Below, piece by piece: positions 14,944 through 44,512 of a stretch of 47,308 bases of DNA (positions are counted from its first letter, which is position 1; every line of letters begins with the position of its first letter). Where the stretch lies: the IMG/VR virus record IMGVR_UViG_3300032116_000352, positions 1-47,308 of that record, one strand, 5' to 3'. The position numbers were made by a program, and so were the translations under genes. This DNA comes from a virus. Below the pieces are notes generated by a model, which saw nothing but the letters and a program-made list of their open reading frames with translations, was not told the DNA's origin and made no database searches.

Positions 14944-15669
14944 ATGCCTAATTTTATAACTATTGATACAATAACAGGAGTTGAACCTTATCACATTTAT
15001 CTTTGTGATACAAATTTCGAAAATTGTATCTATATCAACACAATAAATGACGTTGATATACCTTATACATTTGAGCTACCTCCAATTTATGCCGATTCAC
15101 AAAATATTGTTATAAGATTTGAAAATGACGGTGGATGTGGTGTAAATAGTTATTTGAATACACAATATAAGGCCTGTAGGTATTCACAGTGGGAAACATT
15201 ATTTTGGATGACTTATCAAGGAAATCCTTTATCAGGACCTTTCAGTCCAATAAATTCATACTTGTCCTCTTTCATAGTAAATGGAAATGAATTACTTACT
15301 GGTTATGTTGATTTGGATGTGACAGGGCCTGTTACACCTGTCTTACAAAATGGGGTTTATAATTATCCAACAATTGTAGATTGGTTGAATAATACAGTTT
15401 TTCCGTCTTTGAGCTTGTCGGGGTATACAGCTCAGATGTCTTTTTTACCTTATGATGGTGGGAGTTTAGATTCCTCAGATATTCCTTATTTTTATATTAT
15501 ATATCCAAAAGATGATACATTTTCAATCGTCGTTAATACTTGGTCTACAACGCTTACATATAGTAACACAGGAGTAACTCCATCAAGTGGGACTTATTCA
15601 ACATATACATCAGATTGTAACATCACAACAATAAAAAATGAACCAACAGGGCCTGTAGTGGTCGAATAA
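14944..15669 (+). CDS. Adhesin-type virion protein, N-terminal module shared with the 26029 gene
   Basis: The 241-residue product is rich in Thr, Ser, Tyr and Asn, with no enzyme motif, as is usual for receptor-binding tail parts. Residues 1-65 (TIDTITGVEPYHIYLCD, then ENCIYI and LPPIYADSQNIVIRFENDG) align by eye with the N-terminus of the minus-strand protein at 25064 (TINTISLSPDYQIYICD, NNCVFT, LPSIYSNAGSVGVKIINNG). A second domain (YNYPTIVDWLNNTVFPSL) is of a type also seen at the C-terminus of the 997-residue tail protein. It is transcribed against the surrounding tail genes, followed after 1 nt by another adhesin gene. Confidence 0.65.
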   Translation: MPNFITIDTITGVEPYHIYLCDTNFENCIYINTINDVDIPYTFELPPIYADSQNIVIRFENDGGCGVNSYLNTQYKACRYSQWETLFWMTYQGNPLSGPFSPINSYLSSFIVNGNELLTGYVDLDVTGPVTPVLQNGVYNYPTIVDWLNNTVFPSLSLSGYTAQMSFLPYDGGSLDSSDIPYFYIIYPKDDTFSIVVNTWSTTLTYSNTGVTPSSGTYSTYTSDCNITTIKNEPTGPVVVE

Positions 15670-15670
15670 T

Positions 15671-16957
15671 ATGGCGTTAAACGATTTTTGTCTTTCAGTA
15701 AATTATGGTGATTTAGGTCAATATAGTGGTGGCTTCGAAGCGGCGGGTAGTTATAACGCAAAATATTATTACACAGGAAATGGTGCAACTTTGAGTTACA
15801 TATATTATAATACTGGCACAACTTCTTGGTGTCTTTCTGAAACTTTAGGAGGTAATTGTATATTATTTGGAAAAAGTAATTGTAACGAAAACGACCCTGA
15901 CTTGTGTGATGGACTTTTCAATCCAGGAATTTGTCCGACTCCGACACCTACACCAACGACCAATTGTGATACATTCACTTTCGAGGCTGTGTTCCAATGT
16001 GACATACCAACAACACCAACACCGACTCCGACACCAACTGTAACAACAACCCCTACGGTAACTCCGTCATCTACAAATGTGTGTTCCACTACTCTTAATT
16101 CATTCACATTCACATTTACTAGTGTTTCTCTCACACCAACACCAACACCAACAGTTACACCAAGTTTCGGTCCGATTCAGAGAGATTGTAGTTTCAGTGG
16201 TTCTGCAATATTCAATACAATAACTGATACTATTGTTTGCCCTCAAACAAAACAATTTAGAGATTGTGAAAATGGGCAAATGTATTATACAAATGACAAT
16301 GTAAGTTCTACGATTGATATGTTTGTTGATAGAATTTATAATGCAACGGTTAATGGTAGTCTTAGATGTATTAGTTTCGTTGGTTCTTCTTTGAATACAG
16401 GTATTGATACTATTGTCATTAACAATGGACCTTACGGTAATTATAGTGAGGGTGATTGTAATCAGGGATGTTCAGGAACACCACCAACTCCTTCTCCGAC
16501 ACCAACACCATCAATTACTCCTACAAATACAGTAACACCGAGTGTAACACCAACAATTCCACTTACTAGTACTCCAACGCCGACAAACACACCAACAACC
16601 ACACCAACGCCTACTTTGTTGAGTCCTATGTGTTTTGTAACAACAGTTTTCAATGGACCTGCCGGTAGTCCAAGTAACCCAACATTCAGTTGCACAACAC
16701 AACCAGCGGGATATTTTAATTCTAAACCATATTATAATTATAATAATTTTACGGACTGTACATCACCATTACCACTTGTTGTTTATTGGAATAATTCATT
16801 AAGTAGATGGGAATTTTCAACTAATGATATACCAAATCCAACTTATGTTTTAAGCTATAACACCAGTACAGGAAGTTATCCTACAGGTTCTTGGGTTCGT
16901 GTCACCGTACCAGGTGTCAATTACGGTATAGTATTTTCTTCTATCGGTAGTTGTTAA
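15671..16957 (+). CDS. Pro-Thr-linker adhesin with two copies of an NxKxYY/W module
   Basis: This 428-residue protein is built from small Cys-containing domains joined by four Pro-Thr linkers (DNA about 15936-15960, 16005-16072, 16132-16156 and 16481-16620). The first domain has YNAKYYYTG then YIYYNTGTTSWCLS. The last has FNSKPYYNY then VVYWNNSLSRWEFS. These look like two copies of one module, also found in the minus-strand genes at 20274 and 25064. Cys residues come in regular pairs, suggesting disulfide-stabilised domains outside the cell. A role in host binding at the tail is inferred from composition and context. Its start is 1 nt after the previous stop. Confidence 0.68.
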   Translation: MALNDFCLSVNYGDLGQYSGGFEAAGSYNAKYYYTGNGATLSYIYYNTGTTSWCLSETLGGNCILFGKSNCNENDPDLCDGLFNPGICPTPTPTPTTNCDTFTFEAVFQCDIPTTPTPTPTPTVTTTPTVTPSSTNVCSTTLNSFTFTFTSVSLTPTPTPTVTPSFGPIQRDCSFSGSAIFNTITDTIVCPQTKQFRDCENGQMYYTNDNVSSTIDMFVDRIYNATVNGSLRCISFVGSSLNTGIDTIVINNGPYGNYSEGDCNQGCSGTPPTPSPTPTPSITPTNTVTPSVTPTIPLTSTPTPTNTPTTTPTPTLLSPMCFVTTVFNGPAGSPSNPTFSCTTQPAGYFNSKPYYNYNNFTDCTSPLPLVVYWNNSLSRWEFSTNDIPNPTYVLSYNTSTGSYPTGSWVRVTVPGVNYGIVFSSIGSC

Positions 16958-20273: not shown

Positions 20274-21626
20274 TTACAAAATCGATGACATACTTGGTGA
20301 TTCTTTTATTGAGTTAATAGAACAACAAGTACAATTCTGAATACTCGAATTATCTAACGTTATACTGTCAACACTTGTAACTGATGCACAGGGGTCAGTA
20401 ACCTGACCAAAAGGTAATGATTTAGTTATTGTTGTTATGACATTACCGCTAACCACATCGTTCCCTTGGATTTGGACATCAGTTGTATTTTGAGTAATAA
20501 CTTTAAATACTGAGTTAGCGGTACAATTAGTGTTAGTATTGTTTGATACTGTATTAATTACTGATTCGGTTAAGGGTAAATTCGTACCATTTTTTTGTAT
20601 GGAAATTGTTCTATTGATGACACCTGTGTTTTGAAATGGTGTTTCATCAAATGTGTTCGATTGTACTATGTCAAAATTTATAATTATACCAGTAGGAAGT
20701 TGAGTAATATTATTATTATTGATATCTTTAACTCTTACAATGAAATCAAATCTTTTTGTTATGGATGTTTGACCTAACCCATTGTTTCCTTGTTGTACTG
20801 TGGTAGTTGTGGTTTCTAACTTCAAAGTATAAGGTGTAATACCTGTACCAACAGGGACCGTAATTGTTTGAGTAGTTATCAAATTGTTAGCGTCTTTAGC
20901 CCAAACGGTGTAAGTTGATGGACAAAGATTGGAAAACAAAGGTGATGGTGATGTTGTTGTACCATTATTTATTGAATATAGTATCGGTTGAGCACCATTT
21001 TCTATTTGGATTTCTATCGCACCACTACAACCTTCGTTCAAACAAGTTGGGTTAGTAATATTGACGGTTTTTATACCAAATGGGGAGACCTGACAAGTAC
21101 CCTCACGAACTGTAACTGTATCTTGGTTACCAAATATAGTCCAACCGGCTATAGGTGGTGTTGCAGGATTACTATTTACCATTTGGCCAGATTGCCAATT
21201 TTCAACGAACCAATATTGATTCGACGAATCCCACTTAACATTATAAGTTGAGGAGCTCCAAACAGGTTTAGAATTATATGTTTGGTCAGTAAGTGTGAAA
21301 TTATATTGAGTCAGAGAACCTAAATAACCCCTACGAACTTCAAAACATAAGTTCGGTAAGGAGACTGGCGGACTACCCAAGGTATAAACTATAGGTTCAC
21401 ACTCATCCCCTTTTCCTGTGGTATTTACCAATAAAATCGAGGCCGCTGAATCCGGAATTTGGACTCCAAATCCTGAGCCAGTAGTTAATGCACTATAACT
21501 TATACCTACAGCGTTAGTACCTGTGGTATAACCTGTTGCAAAAGTATTACTTCCAACAGTATCGTAATATATGTTGTATGGACCAGCGGAGGTCCCTCCT
21601 GTTATTTTTACATAAAAATATCTCAT
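20274..21626 (-). CDS. Tail adhesin-type protein with an NxKPVW module and SprB-like unit
   Basis: The ATG at 21626 is 2 nt after the upstream stop and is preferred over the longer frame to 21650. The 450-residue product begins with a beta module (YFYVKITGGTSAGPYNIYYD). Next is a copy of the NxKPYY/W module (YNSKPVWSS, YNVKWDSSNQYWFVE). A SprB-like unit follows (IEIQIENGAQPILYSINNG, CPSTYTVWAKD), and then a domain with IDFIVRVKD-type strands and a C-terminal CTCC group. No Pro-Thr linker occurs, unlike its neighbours. A receptor-binding or decoration role in the tail is inferred from the shared modules. Confidence 0.66.
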   Translation of the reverse strand: MRYFYVKITGGTSAGPYNIYYDTVGSNTFATGYTTGTNAVGISYSALTTGSGFGVQIPDSAASILLVNTTGKGDECEPIVYTLGSPPVSLPNLCFEVRRGYLGSLTQYNFTLTDQTYNSKPVWSSSTYNVKWDSSNQYWFVENWQSGQMVNSNPATPPIAGWTIFGNQDTVTVREGTCQVSPFGIKTVNITNPTCLNEGCSGAIEIQIENGAQPILYSINNGTTTSPSPLFSNLCPSTYTVWAKDANNLITTQTITVPVGTGITPYTLKLETTTTTVQQGNNGLGQTSITKRFDFIVRVKDINNNNITQLPTGIIINFDIVQSNTFDETPFQNTGVINRTISIQKNGTNLPLTESVINTVSNNTNTNCTANSVFKVITQNTTDVQIQGNDVVSGNVITTITKSLPFGQVTDPCASVTSVDSITLDNSSIQNCTCCSINSIKESPSMSSIL

Positions 21627-21628
21627 AG

Positions 21629-24600
21629 CTATGCTGGTGGTGGTAAGCAAACAACACCTATATTTGTACTTAGTCCCGTTTCATTACTGAAGTATAATTT
21701 TCTAGTCGTCCCTACATCGTATGCAACTTCCAATACAATAGGACTGAAAGCCCCTGTTATTGTTCCTAGAACACTATACGAATAATTCAATACCGTAATA
21801 GTATCATCACCATTATTACCCACATAATAAAGGGCGTTACCTAAATAATAGGCGATACCTGATGGTGAATTTCCTACCGAAATTGTATTACTAACAGTAT
21901 TTGTAATAGTGTTTATCACTTTGACTTGATTTGCGGAGGTCATAGAAACTAAAAGGTCAGTATTTACAGAATCTGAAAATTTAGAATAAGTTGGTCCATT
22001 TCCACCTCCTAAATTGACTGAAGCCCCAAAATCAATGACCGAACCCACAGGGTCCAAATTGTAAATGTAATTACTTGTAAAATCAGAACTATATAATCTT
22101 CCTGTGTTAGACTTAAATTCTAACCAAACAGGGTCATTACCCGCAAAAAAGGTTAATGCTATAACTGTATTCGTTGTGCAATTCAAACTACAAAGCTCGA
22201 CTCCAATAATGTAGTTCATATTATTAGTCACCGAATTATACCTTATGGTTTTAACTATTCCACTTCTTTGGGTTGTAATTTCTTGCAACAATGAGTTTGT
22301 GTTACAATCAATGACTGCAATACTAGAGTCGCCACCTACATACATAGAATTATTTACAGAACAATAATCTATACTATAAGCACCCGCTTTCACATAAATT
22401 TGTCCAACTATAGTGTCTGTTGTACAATCCAAAATAGATACATAATCTGAACCAGAATTACAGATGTATAATTGGTTATTAGATACATTATACCTTAAAC
22501 CTGTTGGTGTTGAATAATTACTAGAAACATAATAAGGAACATTTTCGACACAAGTTGTTGCCGCTTGGGTTGGGGTTACAGTAGGGGTAGGTGTATTTGT
22601 TGGTGTAGTTGTTGGTGTTTGAGTTGGGGTTGGGGTTATTGTGAATTCTGTAAAGTCAGCTTCAGTAAAACAATCAACTTGTGGTTGTATTATCGAGCAT
22701 GTTGTTGTTGCGGTATAATCAGAAACTCCGTTCCAAGCATAATCCGTTACAACCGCGGTGTATTGTCCAAATGAAACATTACTCAAAATTCTTTCATTAC
22801 TTCCATTGTTCCATAAAATTTTGTATGGTGGAGTTCCACCCGCAATTATTAACTCTATCGTACTACCATTACATTCATTTTGACAATAGATATTTTTTGA
22901 ACATTGTCCCGAACAATAAGTGAAACCCTCAGGACAACTGTAACCAGAGGTTGTGTAGGTACCATTTGTATTTATAACTACATCAGCAACGTTGTTAAAA
23001 TAATTCTTTGAATTGAATACGGTTATTGCACTTAACTGATTACTATTTGTTATGGCGGTAAAAGTAGACAAACTAGGTGGGTTGTATATTTGACATCCGA
23101 AAGCACCTATACTTCCTCTGTTAAGTCCTAAAACTTCAATTGTGTGTTTACCGGCAGTTATTTCTAATGGAAATATATTCCACCATTTGAAATTGTTTGA
23201 ATCGGGTGGTCCGTTAGGGTTTACATTATATGTGTTTATTTTGGAAACTCCATCCAATCTGAATTGTATGTCGTTGTCAGCACCTAAACCAACATAGTAT
23301 GTTTTAGTTTCGGTTATATCAATACAAAAACTAAATCCTAACCATTTATCAAAAGGAGCACCGGTTGAACCACTTGTCCACAATGCACAAGTATTCATAA
23401 CACCAACAAATGGAGCCGATGTCAAAAGTATTGGATTAGTTCCTGTCCCCCCTGATGTGTAACCATTACTAAATATTTTAGAACCATTAACTGAATATTG
23501 ACTGTTAGTTTTTTGGGTTAATGTATAATAACTTACTGGCGTAATAGCACTTTGTGTTATAGTAGCAATACACGAATTAGTTCCGTTATTCAAAGGAGTC
23601 CACTGATAACCTGGGTCACATCCATTACATAATTGGTTTTCACAGTTAGTGACAATACATTCAACAGTTAAGGGATTGGAAATAACAACATCACATTCGT
23701 TTACAAAGTTTATTCTAATATCAGTACTTGGTAGATTAGAGGGTACTGATGAATAAGAAGGTGTTGGTGTTGGAGTTTTTGTAGGGGTTGGGGTTGAAGT
23801 AGGCTGAGAAGTTGGGTTAGGGCTTGGTCCTGGGTTAGGGCTAATCGGACCAACAGGTGTAACATCATAATTATTATTATCTTCTACAACAGGTGTGGTT
23901 GAAGTGTAAATAGTTGTCGAATCGGGATATGTTATTGTAGTTGTAACTTCTTGTGGTAACTCTACACAACATTCTAAATAGGTTATTGTAATATATCCAC
24001 CAACCCCTGCCGGTGTTATTGTATATTCCATACAATAACAAGTTGGTGTCAAAGTTGTGGTTGGGGTTATTGTTGGTGTCGGTGTAACTGATTTTGTCGG
24101 GGTCGGTGTTGGAGTCGGTGTAGGAGTAGTTGTAGGAGTCTGTGTAGGTGTTTTTGTGTTGGTTGGTGTCTGAGTAGGCGTCTTGGTATTTGTAGGTGTT
24201 TGTGTGGGTGTTTTAGTGTTTGTAGGTGTCGGGGTTGGGGTTACGGCTGAACAGGGGTTACTTGCTTGACAACTTTCACAACTAGTTTCACCTTCCAAAG
24301 AAACTCCAGCCTCGGGATATGTTGTTAGACCGGCAACATAACTTATTACTTTAGCACATCCTGAAAACCCACCAGGAACTTCTACGTTAAATACTGACCC
24401 AATCGGTAATTCACTACTTAATCCGTCAATATTAAACATTTCATACGGCTCACAACAAGCGGAAAAGGTCGTTGGGTCAACAAGTGGTGTTGGAGTTGGT
24501 GTAGGACTCGTTGTTACAGTTGGGGTATTTGTTGGTGTCTGAGTATTAGTAGGGGTGTTCGTTGGTGTTTGTGAAGGTGTTTTTGTGTTGGTTGGTGTTT

Positions 24601-24967
24601 GAGTCGGTGTCTGTGTTTGGGTTTTTGTCACAGTTGGGGTTTGAGTTACCGTTGGTGTGACTGATTTAGTAGGGGTTGGGGTAAAACTAGGTAGGAGAAT
24701 TACGGTTCCACCGCCACCGGTCTCTCCACCGCTAGAACACCAAGAGCAACTTATCGATGTTGTACTATTAATTACACTTAATACATTATAAGTTGAAGTC
24801 GGGGTTGGTATGGGTGCTTTGGTTGTTAAAGAATGAACGCAAAGATAAACGGTAGAAAAATTTGGGGCTAAACATTCAAGGTAGTATAAAGTTCCAGTAG
24901 CCAAAACTTGACTAGAACTAATTTTGACCGAACCTAAATTACAATCTGTTCCGTAATAAATTGCCAT
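21629..24967 (-). CDS. Giant modular adhesin with Pro-Thr linkers and C-terminal YVTN-like beta-propeller
   Basis: The 1112-residue protein has alternating small domains and Pro-Thr linkers (DNA about 24484-24686, 24040-24246, 23758-23850 and 22565-22640). After a Cys-rich N-terminal domain come a CC module (ACCEPYEMFNI ... CESCQ) and a larger domain about residues 470-650 that looks like a PA14-type jelly roll (YYVGLGADNDIQFRLDG, ITAGKHTIEVLGLNRG). One SprB-like unit follows (GGTPPYKILWNN). The last 320 residues form repeats such as NNQLYICNSGSDYVSILDC and NSMYVGGDSSIAVIDC, typical of YVTN/NHL-type beta-propellers. PA14 and propeller domains commonly bind carbohydrate or protein, so this is a strong receptor-binding candidate. 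Confidence 0.72.
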   Translation of the reverse strand: MAIYYGTDCNLGSVKISSSQVLATGTLYYLECLAPNFSTVYLCVHSLTTKAPIPTPTSTYNVLSVINSTTSISCSWCSSGGETGGGGTVILLPSFTPTPTKSVTPTVTQTPTVTKTQTQTPTQTPTNTKTPSQTPTNTPTNTQTPTNTPTVTTSPTPTPTPLVDPTTFSACCEPYEMFNIDGLSSELPIGSVFNVEVPGGFSGCAKVISYVAGLTTYPEAGVSLEGETSCESCQASNPCSAVTPTPTPTNTKTPTQTPTNTKTPTQTPTNTKTPTQTPTTTPTPTPTPTPTKSVTPTPTITPTTTLTPTCYCMEYTITPAGVGGYITITYLECCVELPQEVTTTITYPDSTTIYTSTTPVVEDNNNYDVTPVGPISPNPGPSPNPTSQPTSTPTPTKTPTPTPSYSSVPSNLPSTDIRINFVNECDVVISNPLTVECIVTNCENQLCNGCDPGYQWTPLNNGTNSCIATITQSAITPVSYYTLTQKTNSQYSVNGSKIFSNGYTSGGTGTNPILLTSAPFVGVMNTCALWTSGSTGAPFDKWLGFSFCIDITETKTYYVGLGADNDIQFRLDGVSKINTYNVNPNGPPDSNNFKWWNIFPLEITAGKHTIEVLGLNRGSIGAFGCQIYNPPSLSTFTAITNSNQLSAITVFNSKNYFNNVADVVINTNGTYTTSGYSCPEGFTYCSGQCSKNIYCQNECNGSTIELIIAGGTPPYKILWNNGSNERILSNVSFGQYTAVVTDYAWNGVSDYTATTTCSIIQPQVDCFTEADFTEFTITPTPTQTPTTTPTNTPTPTVTPTQAATTCVENVPYYVSSNYSTPTGLRYNVSNNQLYICNSGSDYVSILDCTTDTIVGQIYVKAGAYSIDYCSVNNSMYVGGDSSIAVIDCNTNSLLQEITTQRSGIVKTIRYNSVTNNMNYIIGVELCSLNCTTNTVIALTFFAGNDPVWLEFKSNTGRLYSSDFTSNYIYNLDPVGSVIDFGASVNLGGGNGPTYSKFSDSVNTDLLVSMTSANQVKVINTITNTVSNTISVGNSPSGIAYYLGNALYYVGNNGDDTITVLNYSYSVLGTITGAFSPIVLEVAYDVGTTRKLYFSNETGLSTNIGVVCLPPPA
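24040..24246 (-). repeat. Pro-Thr linker with tandem 30-bp units
   Basis: Within the 1112-residue adhesin, this segment encodes three nearly identical TPTNTKTPTQ decapeptides in a row, followed by a pure PT run. The DNA units are about 30 bp with synonymous differences, so the array is selected at the protein level but could still change length by slippage. Confidence 0.75.
24484..24686 (-). repeat. Long Pro-Thr/Gln/Asn linker
   Basis: About 67 residues of TPT, TQT and TNT repeats near the N-terminus of the 1112-residue adhesin. It separates the N-terminal domain from the CC module and is likely an extended, possibly O-glycosylated spacer. Confidence 0.7.
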
Positions 24968-24983
24968 TAAATGTTTTTTTGTT

Positions 24984-24990
24984 ATAAATA
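24984..24990 (-). promoter_or_regulatory. TATTTAT start-proximal motif
   Basis: The minus strand reads CAATATTTATAACAAAA, 16 nt from the ATG at 24967. It lies in the 96-nt gap between 24968 and 25063, one of the larger gaps in the window. Confidence 0.42.
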
Positions 24991-25063
24991 TTGATTATTG
25001 CGTTTTGACACATAAAAAAATATAATCCGTACTATGACTAAATAAAGGTTTTGAATTATTAAT

Positions 25064-26029
25064 TTAGCAGGGGTCACTCAAAGTTGCGAAATAAGAAGCA
25101 TAACCTGACGTGTTACATATCCAAATCTGATTAGTGTTAGCAATAAAGTTTGTCACAACACTTATAGGTGTAGTTAAATTCGAGTCACTGAAAATTTGAA
25201 CAATACAGGATGGGCAGAAAGTAGAGGTGGAATTAATATAGAAATTGAAACTACTAGTTGATGATAATGTATATCTACTCAGACAACTTATAGTTCCTTT
25301 TACACTATTCACTAACAGTGATAGCGCTGGCGTCCGAGTTGGTGTTGGAGTACTTGTTGGTGTTGGGGATGGGCACACGCTAGAGGTAGAAGTTGAAATT
25401 CTATATGCTATAGCAAAAACAAACACGTTAAACCAACTATATGTTCCATTGGTGTATGGGTAATAGTCGGGATTTAGATTATAGGCGATTACAGCTCCAC
25501 TAGAAACTATATGTTCCCACCTCGTTGTTGTTGGATTCCAAACAACGAAAGAATTTGAGAATGTCAAACAATCTGAAAGTAGGATACCGTAATAAGGTTT
25601 ACCATTCAAAATCCCTAAAGGGGATAAACTACAACTGTAATTGCCGTTAGCTATACTTTGATTAATCATATTGAAGCACATAACGGGTGCCACAGTCGTT
25701 GTTGGTGTGGGAGTTGGAGTTGGTGTTGGACTTACAGCACCAGTTGTTGGTGTGATAGTTGGCGTAGGTGTTAGGGTAGGGGTTATCGATGGTGTGGGTA
25801 TTAAAGTATCACAAAGTAAAACTTCAAATTTTTCACAATTACCATTATTAATAATTTTCACCCCGACAGAACCAGCATTACTATAGATACTTGGTAAGGA
25901 TAATGTTATAGATGGAGGTACGTTTATTGGAACAAGGGCCGTAAACACACAATTGTTACCGTAAACATCACATATATATATTTGATAATCAGGACTTAAT
26001 GAAATTGTGTTTATAGTAACCGAATTCAT
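25064..26029 (-). CDS. Pro-Thr-linker adhesin
   Basis: The ATG at 26029 follows the upstream stop by 1 nt; the frame itself runs to 26038. The 321-residue product has an N-terminal module like that of the plus-strand protein at 14944. A Pro-Thr linker follows (DNA about 25690-25800), then an NxKPYY module (LNGKPYYGI, FVVWNPTTTRWEHI) and a second linker (about 25334-25376). Its C-terminal domain (FNFYINSTSTFCP ... QIWICNTSGYASYF) is shared with the end of the 968-residue SprB protein just upstream. It thus looks like a recombinant of pieces found elsewhere in the locus. A tail adhesin role is inferred. Confidence 0.67.
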   Translation of the reverse strand: MNSVTINTISLSPDYQIYICDVYGNNCVFTALVPINVPPSITLSLPSIYSNAGSVGVKIINNGNCEKFEVLLCDTLIPTPSITPTLTPTPTITPTTGAVSPTPTPTPTPTTTVAPVMCFNMINQSIANGNYSCSLSPLGILNGKPYYGILLSDCLTFSNSFVVWNPTTTRWEHIVSSGAVIAYNLNPDYYPYTNGTYSWFNVFVFAIAYRISTSTSSVCPSPTPTSTPTPTRTPALSLLVNSVKGTISCLSRYTLSSTSSFNFYINSTSTFCPSCIVQIFSDSNLTTPISVVTNFIANTNQIWICNTSGYASYFATLSDPC

Positions 26030-26030
26030 T

Positions 26031-28937
26031 TTAAGCAAATATACAAGGACTTCCTACCTGATTAGTATAAGTAGCAACCCCCGATTGGTTTATAGACCAA
26101 ATGTTATTTCCAATTCTCATATAAAGTGGTGCTTGTATTGGTGATATTGTAAGAGGCAAGCTCAACGCAGCATTCAGGTATAATTGGAATGGCTGACTAA
26201 TGTTGTATATGTTAGTACCAGGAGAAGTGTAGAAGTTAATTGTGTTAAGTTGTGTAAACTGTATGAAATTAGAAACACATGCATAACTACCTGTTGCGAA
26301 ACTATATAACGTACTGAAACTATTATTAGTTGGTGTCACGGTTTTAGTTGGTGTTGGTGTAGGACTTTGTCCCGGTGTTGATGTATTGGTAGGTGTTAAA
26401 GTTTGAGTTGGTGTTGGTGTCGGACTAAGACCTGTTGTTGGGGTTATTGTAGGTGTTATTGTCGGTGTTATAGTTGGTGTTTGGGTTGGTGAAGTGGTAA
26501 TTGTTGGTGTTGGTGAAGGAGTACAAGCAATGTTTGATGTCAAACAATCGTTACAATCAACGTATTGAGGTGTTTCGAAGAATTCATTATCTATGATACC
26601 TGTTATAGTTATAGTTGATGGGTCAACTACAACGAATGACATACAACCACCTGTTGTGTATATTGCATCACCTACTTCGAAGTTACCTAATCTCGATGCG
26701 ACTAACCAATAAGAATTGTCGCAACAAGCGGTAAATACTTGGAACGCCGGTTGACAAGATACACATCTAATATCATAATCTATTTTCAAATCTACAGTTA
26801 CTTGAGCATCGCTCAGAACATTCTGAGAAAGATTACAGTTAGTAGTAACTATGATTGTGTTGTTATTTATGTCAATAGTAACATCACCAATACCATAAAC
26901 ACTTTTTATCAGATTGATGATTGTCGAGGCCCATAAGGAGTCAGAAGGAACATCAGATAAAGACGTACTATTGTAAAATTCCGATGTTACTTGCGTCTCA
27001 CCAACATTTACAATCGCAGTCATTTTTGCATTATATAATATACAACTTGAATTTCCGTTAGATAAATCAAAATACCCTTCCGCTATCATCTGTTGGATAC
27101 CTTGTCTTTGGGGAATCCCTTGGTCTGTCAGAACACCACTACAAATATTGAATATTTGGAAATCTCCAACAGTATTTCTACCTAATAGTGTTATTTCTGC
27201 AGATTTAGTGCAACCACTTTTATCCACTATTGTTACTGAATATGTTCCAGCACTTAATGAATTAAGTGTAAGACCTGTTTGTCCATTTACATTACTTGAC
27301 CAATTAGCAGTAAATGGTGGATTACCATCAGTAATATAAACATTTATAGTACCATCATTACTAAATGTCACATCTGTTTTACTCAAGAAGAAATCTAAAC
27401 TATTTGAATTGACTATACTTATACTACTTGTCTGAGAACAACCACTTGAGTCAGTAACTCTAATATTATATACACCGCTTTGTAAATTATTGAATGTATA
27501 TGCGCTCGATACAAGTTGAGGTGAAAGCAAAGTATTGTTGAGTGAATAAACGAACGGACCTGTTCCACCTGGTGATTTTGTCACCGTGATTGAACCGTTA
27601 TTGTTCCCACACAAAGGTTGTGTTGCTGATGCTGTAACTGTGAATTTTGATTCAGCGGCAACTGTTATAAATTGCTGGTAGTTACATAAATTCGTACTGT
27701 CAGATATGATTAAAGTGTAGGTATCTGCACTTAGGTTGTTAAACGAGTAGCTCGGAAGTAAACTTGTTACATTTACTAACTCAAAGGATTGAGACGTTAT
27801 TAGTTTGTAGGAATATGGTGGTGTACCTCCGTTTAATAGAATTGATATTGAACCATTTAAGGATTGACAGGTTGCATTTTTCGAATTTACACTGAGGACG
27901 TTGAATATAGTTGGTGTTAGTAAAGTTACCGTTGTATTAAGTGTGCACAACCCAGCATCCGTTACTGTGAAATTGTATAATCCTGCGGCTAAACTTGTAA
28001 AAGTTACACTTTGATTGAATGAGATTTGAACTTCTCCAGTATTATTGTTGAGATAATAATAAGGGGCACTACCACCTGAAATTGTTATTGTTATTTCACC
28101 ATCATTACCGTAACAAGTTGGTGGAACTACCACGGATGAAATAAGTCCCATTAATGGCACTGCTTGAACTTGGGCAACTTGTGTTGATACACAACCCAAA
28201 GAATCAGTTACAGTCACACTATAAAAACCAGCCGTCAATCCTGTTATGTATGATGTTGTAGATTTATTCTTATCATCCCAAGAATAGGTGAATGGGCCGT
28301 TACCTGTTAAACCCGTGACATAGACCTTACCACTTCCATCACTTATTCTACCCGTACAATTACCGTCGTTTACAATATATAATCCATATTCTAATGTTGA
28401 GGATGACATCACAACACAGTTTTCACTTCGACCTGTACATCCTCCACCATTATTGGCAACAACATAATAGATACCATCCTCTAAATTATTGAAGTAGACA
28501 GGGTTTGTGCCACCTGTAGTACCGGTATAGTAAACATCATTTCTGTATAAATCGAAATATCCTTGTCCGTAAAAAATTGAGGTGGTAGCCGTAATACTAC
28601 CATTGTCTAACCCACAAAAAGTATCTGCGGATTCAATAGAAACACAAGTAGCGGAAGTAATAGTAATATTAACACTTTGTGTCTGTGGTCCAGGTGACCC
28701 ACAAGAATCAGTAATCGTAAAAGAATAAGTCCCAGCAGGTAACCCATTAATTTCATAGTAACCAAGTTTGATACCTTCAAATTGAACTGATGTATTAGGA
28801 TTTCCGTTGGGGTCTAACCACTGAAGTGTATATGGAAATACTCCGGTAATATCTAATGAAAAACCTCCGGATGAATTATTCTGACAATCACCCGTGACTG
28901 ATTGGTTTATAACTAATGGACATCCCGCCGCCATCAT
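26031..28937 (-). CDS. SprB-repeat tail adhesin
   Basis: The 968-residue protein holds seven repeats of about 80 residues in positions 8-575. Each has the pattern GG/NG-x-x-PY/PF-x-Y/W ... L-x-AG-x-Y-x-x-x-V/I-x-D ... GC, for example [12 protein letters not shown] with [15 protein letters not shown]. This is the SprB repeat known from the motile surface adhesin of gliding Flavobacterium. After the repeats come a domain with a CC module ([11 protein letters not shown] ... CNDCLTS), a Pro-Thr linker (DNA about 26337-26520) and a C-terminal domain shared with the protein at 25064. It overlaps the upstream gene by an ATGA. A likely role is binding or mimicking surface structures of a Bacteroidota host. 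Confidence 0.75.
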
Positions 28938-31927
28938 TTAGTACAAGCAATATCAAAGTTTATTCCGACATTCAATTCGAATTCGTTACCCAAAACAAAA
29001 TTATCACAAGTCAGATTTGTCACACTCAAATTATTATCTAATATTACATAATTTAATCCATAATTCAATAATTCATCGAGTTGAGATTGTAAAGCAGTCA
29101 ACCATTGTGACGCTGTTGGGGTACTGAAAGGTAGATTTAGTCCTACTCCATCAAAGAATTTATAATTAATTATTATATCGCCATTTAATTTTATGTTAAC
29201 GTACCATTCTGTTGAAATTGATGTTTGGTCACAATTTATTATGTTATAACCATTACTGTTCAAGTAATTAGTCAAAACTATATTTAAAACTCCTCCGAAA
29301 TTTTGTATAGCGGGAGTTGTGTCCCAAGGATATATTTTACAATTAAGTGCGGATGTTGGGCAATCATAATAAAATAGTGATGAATCCATTACACACGGTG
29401 AACAAGCGACAGGTATAATTTGACAACCTCTTTGTCTTCTCCAAACAAACTTTTGTTTGTGAAATATAGAATTTTCATATCTGACACCAGTATTCCAAAT
29501 TGTGGTTGCCGGAATCATTTGCTCAACTAATCTAATCCAATAATCTCCCAAACCATTAACATAATCAATCATTTTTTGGTAAGTAAATTGATTATTCGGC
29601 ACACCAACTTGTGATGCTGATTGTAAATACTGCCAATAAATAAATTGTAATGTGGGATACCCACCTGTTTTACCATCAGTTATATAAAGTCTATCTCTCG
29701 TATTAATCATATTTTGCCAAAAGGTTTGAGCAAATTCAAAAAACGTTTTTTGAGGTGGATTAGGGTCTATTTGTGTTCTATCGTATATTATTGGGTTGAG
29801 ATAAGTTGGGCAGTAACAATTTTGCGGTGTTGTTAAACCTGTTGATGGTATTGGATAGTCGTAATTTGCTGACAAATACCAAACATCATAAGTTAAACCT
29901 TGACCAACATTCATAAACAAATCTACATTTTTTACGTTCAATACTTGTTTTTCATAGTCAACGTAGTAGAAAGCATTCAACCCATCTTCATTTCTTCTAA
30001 TACCTGTTTCATTATCAGTCCAACTCTTATTATTATCGTTTGTTCTATATAAAGTATAACCTAAACTTGTATAAGGAAATTTTCTAAACCTATTCAAATA
30101 TTTCTGACCATAAGTGAAAGGTTCTAAATATGTTTGATAGTTCGGATTGAATCCAGAAAAACTACTTCTTGAGCTATCAAAAATTTCTAAACCTCTATGT
30201 ACTGGTGTTTGTTCAAACCAACCTGCTCCTTTTTGAAAAAAGTAATTTTCCGTTGGTGTTAAAATTTTAGGATACCCTTCTTCATCAACAGGATATTGGT
30301 CCAAAGATATATTGGCATCTTCTATTGTAGAAGTTATTGTAAATCCTGTATACTCGACCCCTCGTATTCTAAATATATTAGTAGGGTCTAAACTTGGTGT
30401 TTCTGACACATACGTTCCACCTGATATTCTTGCAATACTTTGGTTGAATTGTGTCATATTTATTCGTTGGTCAACTATGTAAATATTTTCATTGAACTCA
30501 ATTAACGCTTCTGGTGCTCCAATCAATCTTAACAAAGCTTCAATAGATTTTCTTGTCCCTTTCGATTTGAACAAATAGGCTGAATTCATAATCAAATTCC
30601 TGAAATATTGATAATTTAATTCATCAGGAGTTTGTGTTCTAGAATATCCTAAAAATTCAGGTGTGGTACTAGAATCAAATATTGTTGTTAAAAATTGGTC
30701 ATTCGTTATTGGAGAAATACTTGTGTTCCATCCAAGGGTTTGTGCTAAGTTTTTTAATAATTGCGATGGTATATCATTTTGAATTGTATAATTTACAGAA
30801 TTCATATAAGCCAAACCATCAATAAATTTTTTAACCTCGTCAAAACTTCTTCCATAGATTTGGAGAGTTTTTGTCATTTTTTGGTCATCTGTATCGAATT
30901 CTTTGAATGCATCTGTTGTTAAAAATCTTACCAAAGTATTTGTCTTGTATTCATCCAAATTATTGGCAATCTCTGCCAAACTCTCAAGATAATTTGTGTA
31001 GGAAAATGTTCTGATATCCAAATTCCAAATACCATCCAATGGCCAATTGAGTTTAACATTATCTATGAAATAATCTCCAGAGTCGTTTTCTTTAGGGACT
31101 TGGAATGTTGTTGTGTATATGGGATTGGTCAGTCGATTAAGAAGAAAATTTTCTACTTGGTCAAAATTATCTCTGAAAATACTTTCAACAATTGTATCGT
31201 CAGGTCTGATTAATAGAGTTTTAGTTGTAAATTGTTCCCCTGAAAATGGATTACCACTAACGTAAATTTTAAGAACACCTGTTGTCAGTCCTGTGGATGG
31301 TGTCAAAAACACAATTGGATAACTTTCGCCATCCACTTTCATTATATACTTTTTGGCTTGTGTTGTGAGATTTCTAAATTCGGATACTTGTATTTCTCTT
31401 AATTCGAGATTTCTTGTTGCGTTTGTAGTAAAATCTATTTCGAATGGATTTGATATTCTTGACAAATTTAGTTCCAAATACGTTTCACCCCTTGATTGAT
31501 TAAACTGAATGTTAGTCGCTGTAAAACCACTAGTATAATCTAAGGTCAGACTATTGAATTGCAATGCTGCGGGAAAATATCGTATAATTTTGTTAATCGA
31601 AACTTCAAATCTTTTGGCCAATGAGCCATACATAGAGAAATTACTAACATCACTCAAATCGAAGTTAGGAAATACTTGGTAATTCTTCTCTAAAATTGCT
31701 TTTGATTCTTCAATGTTTGTTATATTCAGAGTTTCTAAAGTTATTGGGTCCGAAAAAGCACCTACGATAAAATCTCTATTTGATTTTTCAGTGAAACTTG
31801 TGGAAAAAGTAAAATTACCTTGTGTTAAACCTCCTCCTTGAACTAATTGCAACCCGACCAGGTCATCAGCGAAGGTTCCTTCGCCACTGACAGATTGAGG
31901 AGGACAGGTATATTTAATAATCGCCAT
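28934..31927 (-). CDS. Large tail/baseplate protein with tail-protein-I-like segment
   Basis: The 997-residue product has no Pro-Thr linker and looks like a core tail protein. Around residues 436-486 it reads [20 protein letters not shown] then [19 protein letters not shown]. This resembles the KGT...L...G element of phage tail protein I (P2 gpI type), which links baseplate to fibres. The C-terminal 150 residues (about 850-997) are Cys-containing and adhesin-like. The start overlaps the upstream stop by 1 nt (TAATG). I infer a baseplate component that carries the adhesins encoded downstream. Confidence 0.62.
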
Positions 31928-42212: not shown

Positions 42213-44051
42213 TCAGGAAAAATTAAGCGTTTGTTGGTTTCTTACTCTCACCAATATGTCTTTACCAGGAAACCTAACTTGATAAATTTGACTCGGTTGA
42301 GCGAAAATGGTATCATCAATAAGTTCGATTTGTCTAGTCGCACTTGACACATATCTTTGAGATGTTTGAGAAGACGAATATTGACCTCCAACTAAGTTAA
42401 ATACGTCCAAGCCAGCAATTGAAATTACACCATTTATGTCTTGTATATTTTTTCTTATCTCGGACAAGTATACGTTTGAGCCCAACTCTATATTGCCAGG
42501 GTCAAAGTAATTTGTAACCGCATTTATTATTTCTGACACTACCGCACCTTGATTTTGAGAGGCATCTAACACAACAGAAATATCGAACTTCAAATCAATA
42601 ACCTCTGCGGTTGTTATACTAATATAGTCGTTCATCATCCTATAATTTGATAAGTAATTAGCCAAATTAGTTTTCAAGGTTTCCGATATAATTTCAGTCA
42701 ACTTACCATTATTGTCGTAGGACAAAAGTTGTATGACAACTTTATTGTCTATTTCAGTTATTGAAACTTTTGCCGGTGAGCCAAATTTGGATGGCATATT
42801 TCTTATTACCGCTTCGTAATCACTTACTGTAACTGCTCTATTTTGAGCGGCGAAATTGTATGTCACATAATTTCTAACTTCTTCTATTGTAGGAGTATTC
42901 AACCCTCCAATTGCTGCAGTTATATTATTACAGGTCAAGGAATTAATGACATTTGTATTTGTTGACTCGTTTGGACCATTAACAAAAAATGACGCATTTG
43001 CCACTTGGTTTATAACATTTACTCCTAAATTACTGACCAAACCTCCACCTACTCTATATTGAACAAATATTGTTGAATTTGATTTCAATGTGCTACCTAA
43101 CGCAAAGTTGTTCGAGTATTTTTGTAGATTAAGGGGTGTTCCGTTTCTTGCAAACTCTCTTAATAATTCATCGGTTGATTGACTACCTCCACCAAAAGTC
43201 ATTTTAAAAAATCCTTCAGGTGTGAATTCTGTAATAAATTTGTTTGAGGTTTGTAGATATCTCCCTACTTTAATGCCAGGTTTATCGGATGGTCTTGTTG
43301 GGTCCTCTATGAAGACCTTATCTTGAATCAAGGCATCAACTTCATACCATCTGTTTTCTAAACCTAAAAATTCTTGGGCGCTCGGAACGTTTGCGTATTG
43401 TGTTCCATCTTTCAATAGAACACTTGTAACACCTAATACATTTTTTTCAGGTAAAAACATTTCAAAAAATGGTCTTACGTCATTTGCATTTACAACTCTT
43501 TTGAATACTTTCGTTATACCATTAACAACAGGTTCTCTTTTTGTAATCCTATATGAAGTTATAATATTATTGGCATCGAAAATAGGAACTTTGGTTCTAT
43601 TTAGATTTCCGTCGGAATCAAAGTTAGAAGAAAAATCAATATCATTTAATGTTTCGAAAACTTGTCCCGCACCTGTAACTTGAGCCCCTCTCCTGATTAT
43701 ACCACAATATCTCAAATCTTCTCTATCACCGAAAGGGGGAACTATTATAGAAAATTCTGTGAGTGCAACCGATGGTCTCAGACCAGGAATTTTTAATCCA
43801 TAGGTTCTAGCAATGTTATATATAGAAGACCTTTGTTGTGCATATTGTAATACGGTCTCTTGAATACTTCTATCTATGTTGAATTGTAGGTTGTCGCTAA
43901 CAGCAGCGTTTAAATCCAACAAAACAGAAAATACCGAAGCATCATTAACGTTTTGAATTAAATCAGGATAATATGTCCTTACAAAATTTATTAGTTCTGT
44001 CCTTATTGATTGAAAATCTCTTGTTGTATAGGATATTTTTTTGTTTGACAT
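42213..44051 (-). CDS. Baseplate wedge protein, gp6-like (baseplate J family)
   Basis: The 612-residue protein begins ISYTTRDFQSIRTELINFVR then DLIQNVNDASVFSVLLDLNA, which is the characteristic opening of T4 gp6 and related baseplate J proteins. Its length is close to T4 gp6 (660 residues). The middle contains RNYVTYNFAAQNRAVTVSDYEAVI, the usual J-family motif before the C-terminal domain, and the end has a GVISIAGLDVFNL element. In the virion gp6 forms the inner iris of the contractile baseplate. The gp25-like gene lies 5 nt upstream in the operon, the same pairing as in other contractile phages. Confidence 0.88.
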   Translation of the reverse strand: MSNKKISYTTRDFQSIRTELINFVRTYYPDLIQNVNDASVFSVLLDLNAAVSDNLQFNIDRSIQETVLQYAQQRSSIYNIARTYGLKIPGLRPSVALTEFSIIVPPFGDREDLRYCGIIRRGAQVTGAGQVFETLNDIDFSSNFDSDGNLNRTKVPIFDANNIITSYRITKREPVVNGITKVFKRVVNANDVRPFFEMFLPEKNVLGVTSVLLKDGTQYANVPSAQEFLGLENRWYEVDALIQDKVFIEDPTRPSDKPGIKVGRYLQTSNKFITEFTPEGFFKMTFGGGSQSTDELLREFARNGTPLNLQKYSNNFALGSTLKSNSTIFVQYRVGGGLVSNLGVNVINQVANASFFVNGPNESTNTNVINSLTCNNITAAIGGLNTPTIEEVRNYVTYNFAAQNRAVTVSDYEAVIRNMPSKFGSPAKVSITEIDNKVVIQLLSYDNNGKLTEIISETLKTNLANYLSNYRMMNDYISITTAEVIDLKFDISVVLDASQNQGAVVSEIINAVTNYFDPGNIELGSNVYLSEIRKNIQDINGVISIAGLDVFNLVGGQYSSSQTSQRYVSSATRQIELIDDTIFAQPSQIYQVRFPGKDILVRVRNQQTLNFS

Positions 44052-44056
44052 ATTAT

Positions 44057-44512
44057 TTAAATATTAATAATTATGAAATCTGATGATTCAAAAGCACCAT
44101 CGGTAATTATATAATCAATTTTAACCTTTGCGGTGTGTTCTTTCTCTGATATATTTGTGACTCTAAATTCTTTTTGACCATTTGTTACAACAGTACCAAA
44201 TTCTTCATCTTCTGTTGATGCATCAAATACTTCTATTTTTGTTATTTTAACACCAGGAATATATTTTTCTGCAGATTGTCTTATTTCAGCCTCAATATCT
44301 GAAAATGTAGGACCATCCAATGGTTCGAATATGTATTCATATAATCTTGTTCCGAAATCAGGTAAAAAATATCTACTACCCTTTCTTGTTAATAATAGAT
44401 GAATTAGATTAGTTCTAACTTCCTCATCTTTTGTTTCTGATAAATCCAAAAAATTACCCGTTAAAGAGTTCCTGAATGGAAAATTTATTCCGTATGTTGT
44501 TCCATTTGCCAT
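44057..44512 (-). CDS. Baseplate wedge protein, gp25-like (GPW/gp25 family)
   Basis: The 151-residue protein has the gp25 core: TNLIHLLLTRKGSRYFLPDF then GTRLYEYIFEPLD, followed by a helix (DIEAEIRQSAEKYIPGV) and a strand pair near the end. It is somewhat larger than T4 gp25 (132 residues) because of a C-terminal extension. gp25 seeds the sheath at the baseplate and binds gp6. The gp6-like gene lies directly downstream. Together they show that the phage has a contractile tail. A TATTTAT motif lies 5 nt before the ATG. Confidence 0.92.
   Translation of the reverse strand: MANGTTYGINFPFRNSLTGNFLDLSETKDEEVRTNLIHLLLTRKGSRYFLPDFGTRLYEYIFEPLDGPTFSDIEAEIRQSAEKYIPGVKITKIEVFDASTEDEEFGTVVTNGQKEFRVTNISEKEHTAKVKIDYIITDGAFESSDFIIINI

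Follow-up and report, generated by a model that had tools for sequence, protein, structure and literature searches.

Proteins built from SprB repeats (PF13573), among them SprB of Flavobacterium johnsoniae and many cargo proteins of the type 9 secretion system (T9SS), are widespread among Bacteroidota, with examples in Bacteroidales, Chitinophagaceae and Saprospiraceae, and possession of such units is therefore no marker of gliding. Ig-like domains, tandem or single, are also found in phage structural proteins, such as the fibritin of RB43 (wac; Pseudotevenvirus) and its relatives, and decoration proteins (5lxk, 8zvi). In crAss-like phages, tandem BACON domains near tail genes have been suggested to act in host binding (PMC6949934). 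The literature search found no paper describing SprB repeats in phage tails. The name 'SprB repeat' has, however, already been given automatically in UniProt to A0A6J5LD72, a 714-aa protein of an uncultured Caudovirales phage for which no description was found in the literature searched. The present study focused on a phage gene with seven such units. It defines a core tail component for a widespread, uncultured group of jumbo phages, in which a unit of Bacteroidota surface adhesins has become a fixed-length part of the tail module.

The window, i.e., the whole stretch of DNA analysed, is a 47-kb IMG/VR record (47,308 nt) and represents part of the genome of a large, lake-type bacteriophage, a T4-like jumbo myophage. 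Its relatives include contigs of up to 304 kb, the largest having 24 tRNA gene calls along with genes for a tail sheath and a T4-type large terminase. The nearest named records are the immuto-group Flavobacterium phages, Microcystis phage Mel-JY01 and uncultured huge phages, while the ribonucleotide reductase is closest to those of Tenacibaculum and Cellulophaga phages, and because of these relationships the lineage probably infects Bacteroidota. SprB units were sought in immuto, Mel-JY01, pT24, phi13:1 and LR756508, and none were found. At 98-1312 of the window (minus strand), an ORF of 404 aa weakly matches a Cas12f1-like TNB domain (TnpB-like), with a score under the cut-off.

An initial annotation of the window had proposed a tail protein with seven SprB-type repeats and single units in two neighbouring genes, and both proposals are borne out (Table 1). 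In a PF13573 profile search, SprB was the top Pfam match and highest-scoring family for the 968-aa protein (76.4 bits against a cut-off of 28), with the units spanning residues 14-586 and three of them individually above the cut-off (27534-27635, 27792-27890 and 28038-28136). A bacterial-only profile, made from 300 bacterial SprB units, detected six of the seven (28.8-53.7 bits), compared with a maximum of 10.0 bits among 1000 shuffles of the array. Unit 2 was missed by this profile but aligned to units 4 and 6 by hhalign (96.8% and 98.3%) and was also recognisable from the fold predicted by AF2. Taken together, these results indicate that the units are real rather than chance matches. The single units in genes 21629 and 20274 are likewise real according to the bacterial profile, and are matched by PF13573 below its cut-off (22796-22897, 25.9 bits; 20955-21068, 22.4 bits).

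Table 1. Coordinates of the SprB-type units, their genes and associated features in the window, and of T9SS-type SprB proteins in related contigs
Feature	Location	Strand	Evidence
968-aa tail protein, seven SprB-like (Ig-like) units	26031..28937	-	PF13573 1.3e-21; AF2, seven beta-sandwich units
Unit 1, aa 14-95	28653..28898	-	28.8 bits (bacterial profile); C18 conserved 77/77
Unit 2, aa 98-177	28407..28646	-	hhalign to units 4, 6; Cys108/167 in 76/77 and 72/77
Unit 3, aa 186-262	28152..28382	-	51.3 bits (bacterial profile); Cys194/249 in 77/77 and 76/77
Unit 4, aa 268-342	27912..28136	-	51.1 bits (bacterial profile); PF13573 43.8 bits; Cys275/331 77/77
Unit 5, aa 350-428	27654..27890	-	38.0 bits (bacterial profile); PF13573 35.1 bits; Cys357/418 77/77
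Unit 6, aa 436-510	27408..27632	-	51.7 bits (bacterial profile); PF13573 35.5 bits; Cys443/500 72/77 and 77/77
Unit 7, aa 514-586	27180..27398	-	53.7 bits (bacterial profile)
Alpha/beta domain behind array, aa 610-728	26754..27110	-	hhalign to C-terminal domain of 997-aa protein; AF2
Variable C-terminal extension: Cys-rich module, Thr-Pro linker, terminal domain	26034..26753	-	Comparison of 77 representatives
Single SprB-like unit in 1112-aa fibre-like gene 21629-24967	22736..22900	-	40.5 bits (bacterial profile)
Single SprB-like unit in 458-aa gene 20274-21650	20856..21068	-	39.8 bits (bacterial profile)
Conserved 997-aa tail-module protein, directly upstream of SprB gene	28934..31927	-	Adjacency; 46-89% identity across lineage
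C-terminal domain of 997-aa protein, common to SprB protein	28937..29365	-	hhalign
gp6-like baseplate wedge gene	42213-44051	-	phrog_219 1.9e-25
gp25-like baseplate wedge gene	44057-44512	-	phrog_261 2.7e-15
Host-type SprB protein of contig G007	L255:15066-17390 (G007:C1:75066-77393)		T9SS type B
Host-type SprB protein of contig G009	L272:7374-9890		T9SS type B
Host-type SprB protein of contig G012	L275:5925-11489		T9SS type A

The AF2 model of the 968-aa protein (mean pLDDT 77.8, most unit residues above 70) shows seven consecutive beta-sandwich units, as in tandem Ig-like phage structural proteins, followed by an alpha/beta domain at about residues 610-726; with a pTM of 0.40, the relative orientation of the units is unreliable. 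Foldseek and PDB profile searches returned tandem Ig-like rods, including contactins and phage decoration and whisker proteins. The top match in both was the grappling hook protein GhpA of Aureispira sp. (PDB 9flp and related; structural match E = 2e-19, PDB profile match E = 1e-9), which is also a tandem Ig-like rod from a Bacteroidota surface protein, but is a 5898-aa cell-surface protein and not a virion protein. Global TM-scores are low, so the similarity lies in the individual units and their tandem order. The top viral structural match (E = 2.5e-64) was A0A6J5LD72, which is 35% identical to the window protein over 731 columns and is very probably its ortholog.

The array is strongly conserved across the lineage. 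Many near-copy contigs were reduced to 98 distinct complete phage proteins and then to 77 representatives less than 90% identical. The gene occupies the same place for all 98 proteins, with identity falling to about 35%. None of the 77 representatives lacks a unit at any of the seven positions, and unit lengths are near-constant, although each locus scan took in its best 80 loci and divergent relatives with other unit numbers may be missed. The units of the window protein are mutually about 30-42% identical (BLAST alignments), and for 538 of 539 units the best match is the unit at the same position in another phage. Units 2-6 each have one Cys pair that is nearly invariant among the 77 representatives, and PF13573 was matched by 52 of the 52 aligned members of the ortholog family (E <= 0.001). 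Because of the same-position orthology, the fixed seven positions and the synteny, the array is, on sequence grounds, an old, fixed and vertically inherited tail part and not a recent host capture. One ortholog, of 2234 aa (L078:12925-19629), carries about 500 extra N-terminal residues with Thr-Pro-linked modules before its seven-unit array.

The gene order on the minus strand begins with the gp25-like and gp6-like genes and continues through large matchless proteins to the 997-aa protein, the SprB protein and a set of Thr-Pro-linker genes. The two baseplate wedge genes place the cluster in a contractile tail, and the 968-aa gene lies within this tail/baseplate cluster with conserved synteny, as an appendage gene should. 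It is directly downstream of the 997-aa gene in all 161 loci that show both. Among 83 loci fetched through the neighbour alone, the SprB gene was present in 79, and the four remaining contigs end within the neighbour itself. Profile and structure searches gave no usable family or fold match for the 997-aa protein (model mean pLDDT 59), and its presumed baseplate role rests on gene position; a part resembling tail protein gpI was seen by eye only and is not claimed. Its C-terminal domain is homologous to residues 610-728 of the SprB protein (hhalign 97.6%, E = 3.5e-12), and the order of helices and strands in the two domains agrees between their AF2 models.

The regions behind the array are far less constant. 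A C-terminal extension of at least 40 aa occurs in 44 of the 77 representatives, 29 of these with Thr/Ser-Pro-Thr linkers, and is absent from orthologs of the L010/L011 type. In relatives of the 304-kb type, unrelated genes have taken the place of those directly downstream, although gene 20274 retains a relative with 30% identity. Tail appendages usually consist of a conserved stalk followed by variable modules. In the window, inspection by eye shows Thr-Pro linkers connecting recurrent small domains, Cys-rich and adhesin-like, at 14944-16957 (plus strand), 21629-26038 and 26034-26753 (both minus strand), and across the two strands these domains resemble a shuffled set of fibre modules.

It is moderately likely that the 968-aa protein is a conserved Ig-like stalk or adaptor of fixed length within a tail appendage of these phages. 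This reading follows from the position in a baseplate-gene cluster, the invariable adjacency to the 997-aa gene, the seven fixed positions and the common alpha/beta domain, together with the variability of the extensions and downstream genes, the use of Ig-like units in other phage structural proteins, and the lack of export signals (see below). The product would be a tail-appendage protein conserved in this lineage of T4-like jumbo myophages, which probably infect Bacteroidota, and would be carried on the virion. Its seven units would form a rod of set length, serving as a stalk or spacer as Ig-like domains do in other virions. The domain behind the array, being found also in the 997-aa protein, probably functions in assembly or docking at the baseplate, and the variable Thr-Pro-linked domains of the protein and of the downstream genes would probably make contact with the host.

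It could instead be speculated that the array itself binds the receptor, its SprB-like units sticking to host polysaccharide or protein by weak, multivalent adhesion. The tandem BACON domains of crAss-like phages, proposed to bind hosts, offer a parallel (PMC6949934): they too belong to a Bacteroidota-associated domain family, stand in tandem beside tail genes, and are distinct from the bacterial copies, but they represent another domain family in another phage lineage, and the window array differs in being fixed at seven positions. Units 1, 5 and 6 are also more variable than units 3, 4 and 7. Receptor-binding parts usually vary most, however, and here it is the extensions and downstream genes that vary, the array being the conserved part; seven positions filled without exception would also be unusual for an adhesive array. 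Receptor binding by the array is therefore rather unlikely. Less likely again is a location at the neck or on the capsid surface, as a whisker or Hoc-like decoration, which would be in line with the Ig-like units of RB43 fibritin, of a neck whisker protein in the PDB and of phage decoration proteins. The gene lies within a baseplate/fibre module, no gene for neck or capsid was recognised close to it, and its product has a domain in common with the 997-aa protein of the tail module. RB43 fibritin differs further in adjoining neck genes, in having a Fibritin_C domain and in being better matched by Ig_3; the window protein has no Fibritin_C match, and its identification as a fibritin was rejected.

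How the array relates to bacterial adhesins requires some care, as PF13573 is not specific for Bacteroidota adhesins among Ig-like domains generally. It scores above cut-off on RB43 fibritin (41.9 bits) and on its homolog in Citrobacter phage KKP_3664 (49.8 bits), both of which are better matched by ordinary Ig models. The initial annotation had allowed that another Ig-like repeat of unrelated phages might prove the better match, and this turned out to be half the case: RB43-type fibritins pass the SprB profile, but for the window protein SprB remains the best family. Since these are phages of non-gliding enterobacterial hosts, a SprB-profile match in a phage is not by itself evidence for gliding, a warning for annotation more generally. 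Against the bacterial profile, the window units score 29-54 bits, mostly above RB43 (26-32 bits), whereas nearly all units of T9SS-type phage proteins and of the uncultured phage record LR756502 score higher (mostly 53-95 bits), the bacterial sample being biased toward the LR756502 protein since its units were the query for the genome scan (an alignment mixing phage with bacterial units proved too divergent to serve in this way). With scores between those of RB43 and the T9SS-type proteins, the window units are, as far as their profiles can tell, related to Bacteroidota SprB units but long diverged from them.

The nearest non-phage relatives found are Bacteroidota surface proteins, with up to about 50% identity per unit. 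Their SprB units and those of the window array belong to the same family, with a Cys pair in most units and the motifs GG-PY-Y and G-Y-V-V-D-GC in common. The architectures differ: the window protein has seven fixed, mutually divergent units, whereas the bacterial proteins found have up to 47, and there is far greater similarity among the units of LR756502 than among those of the window array. Unlike the adhesins, the window protein also lacks export features. Searches for a T9SS sorting domain (TIGR04131, TIGR04183, PF13585 and PF18962) gave no match in it, and a crude hydropathy scan detected no signal peptide-like stretch in the 77 orthologs (maximum 1.96, compared with 2.2-3.2 for T9SS-type phage proteins).

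These differences weigh on the proposal that the tail engages moving SprB-type adhesins or gliding treads, by mimicry, co-assembly or riding, which goes back in part to the initial annotation and is unsupported given the missing signal peptide-like stretch and sorting domain. The unit family is indeed that of the host adhesins, it has been suggested that phages of F. columnare use parts of the gliding machinery as receptors, in line with a proposal for F. johnsoniae (PMC7345892), and relatives of the window phage also encode T9SS-targeted SprB proteins. Against this, the family is widespread in Bacteroidota surface proteins and its profile matches the fibritin of phages whose hosts do not glide, and nothing in the tail protein points to gliding partners; engagement with gliding structures is considered very improbable. 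The same annotation had suggested capture of a host adhesin fold, which holds in that the units are of SprB type with nearest non-phage relatives in Bacteroidota, but not as a recent event: despite the per-unit identity to bacterial proteins, recent acquisition of a host adhesin gene fragment is the least credible explanation and was rejected, given the positional orthology of the units, the occurrence of the gene at one place for 98 proteins as little as 35% identical, bacterial-profile scores below those of nearly all T9SS-type phage units, and a GC and GC3 (0.24) like those of neighbouring genes.

A more direct link to gliding-associated export than the tail gene is found outside the 47-kb window, in the largest members of the lineage. 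Four of the five contigs longer than 200 kb encode proteins with a T9SS sorting domain (PF13585), compared with none of 26 shorter contigs. Those of G007 (775 aa) and G009 (839 aa) are 46% identical; both have a hydrophobic N-terminus and combine two SprB units with PKD-like domains and a sorting domain of type B. G012 specifies an 1855-aa protein with a hydrophobic N-terminus, in which four SprB units are combined with a sorting domain of type A. G012 also shares with G011 a conserved three-gene cassette (L274:9125-10921 and L273:7700-9437, respectively), whose small products have signal-like N-termini; the second is PKD-like, and the third has a type B sorting domain. Across G007, G009, G011 and G012 the genes have common neighbours, including an FKBP-type protein (named by eye) and a gene resembling those for small membrane proteins, an arrangement that speaks against misassembly. 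The sorting-domain proteins look like cargo exported by the host T9SS during infection, those with SprB units offering a possible phage route to the host surface, and their genes look more recently acquired than the tail array. Only one precedent for phage-encoded T9SS cargo was found, that of Cryophage (PMC7468147), which the SprB proteins of this lineage extend, and they suggest how phages might change the surface of gliding-type bacteria, an idea that can be put to the test. The lineage would thus use the SprB unit twice, once in a fixed, seven-unit arm of the phage tail and, among its largest members, again in a T9SS-targeted protein on the surface of the infected cell. That the two interact is a slim prospect, but if true could serve, for example, in excluding superinfecting relatives or in placing virions on moving adhesins.

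Related genes were seen in two other phage records. The 642-kb uncultured phage record LR756502.1 encodes a 1670-aa T9SS-type protein (L007:13888-18900) with 14 SprB matches, PKD and CHU_C, and elsewhere the record matches CHU_C twice more and Por_Secre_tail once; because of its sorting domain, the 1670-aa protein was rejected as a relative of the tail protein. Flavobacterium phage immuto 3-5A, which is in culture, has a gene (L282:1192-1923; MW353176.1 12691-13422) that is annotated as cohesin domain-containing and matches the T9SS type A sorting domain PF18962, which makes this phage a tractable isolate for the study of phage-encoded T9SS cargo.
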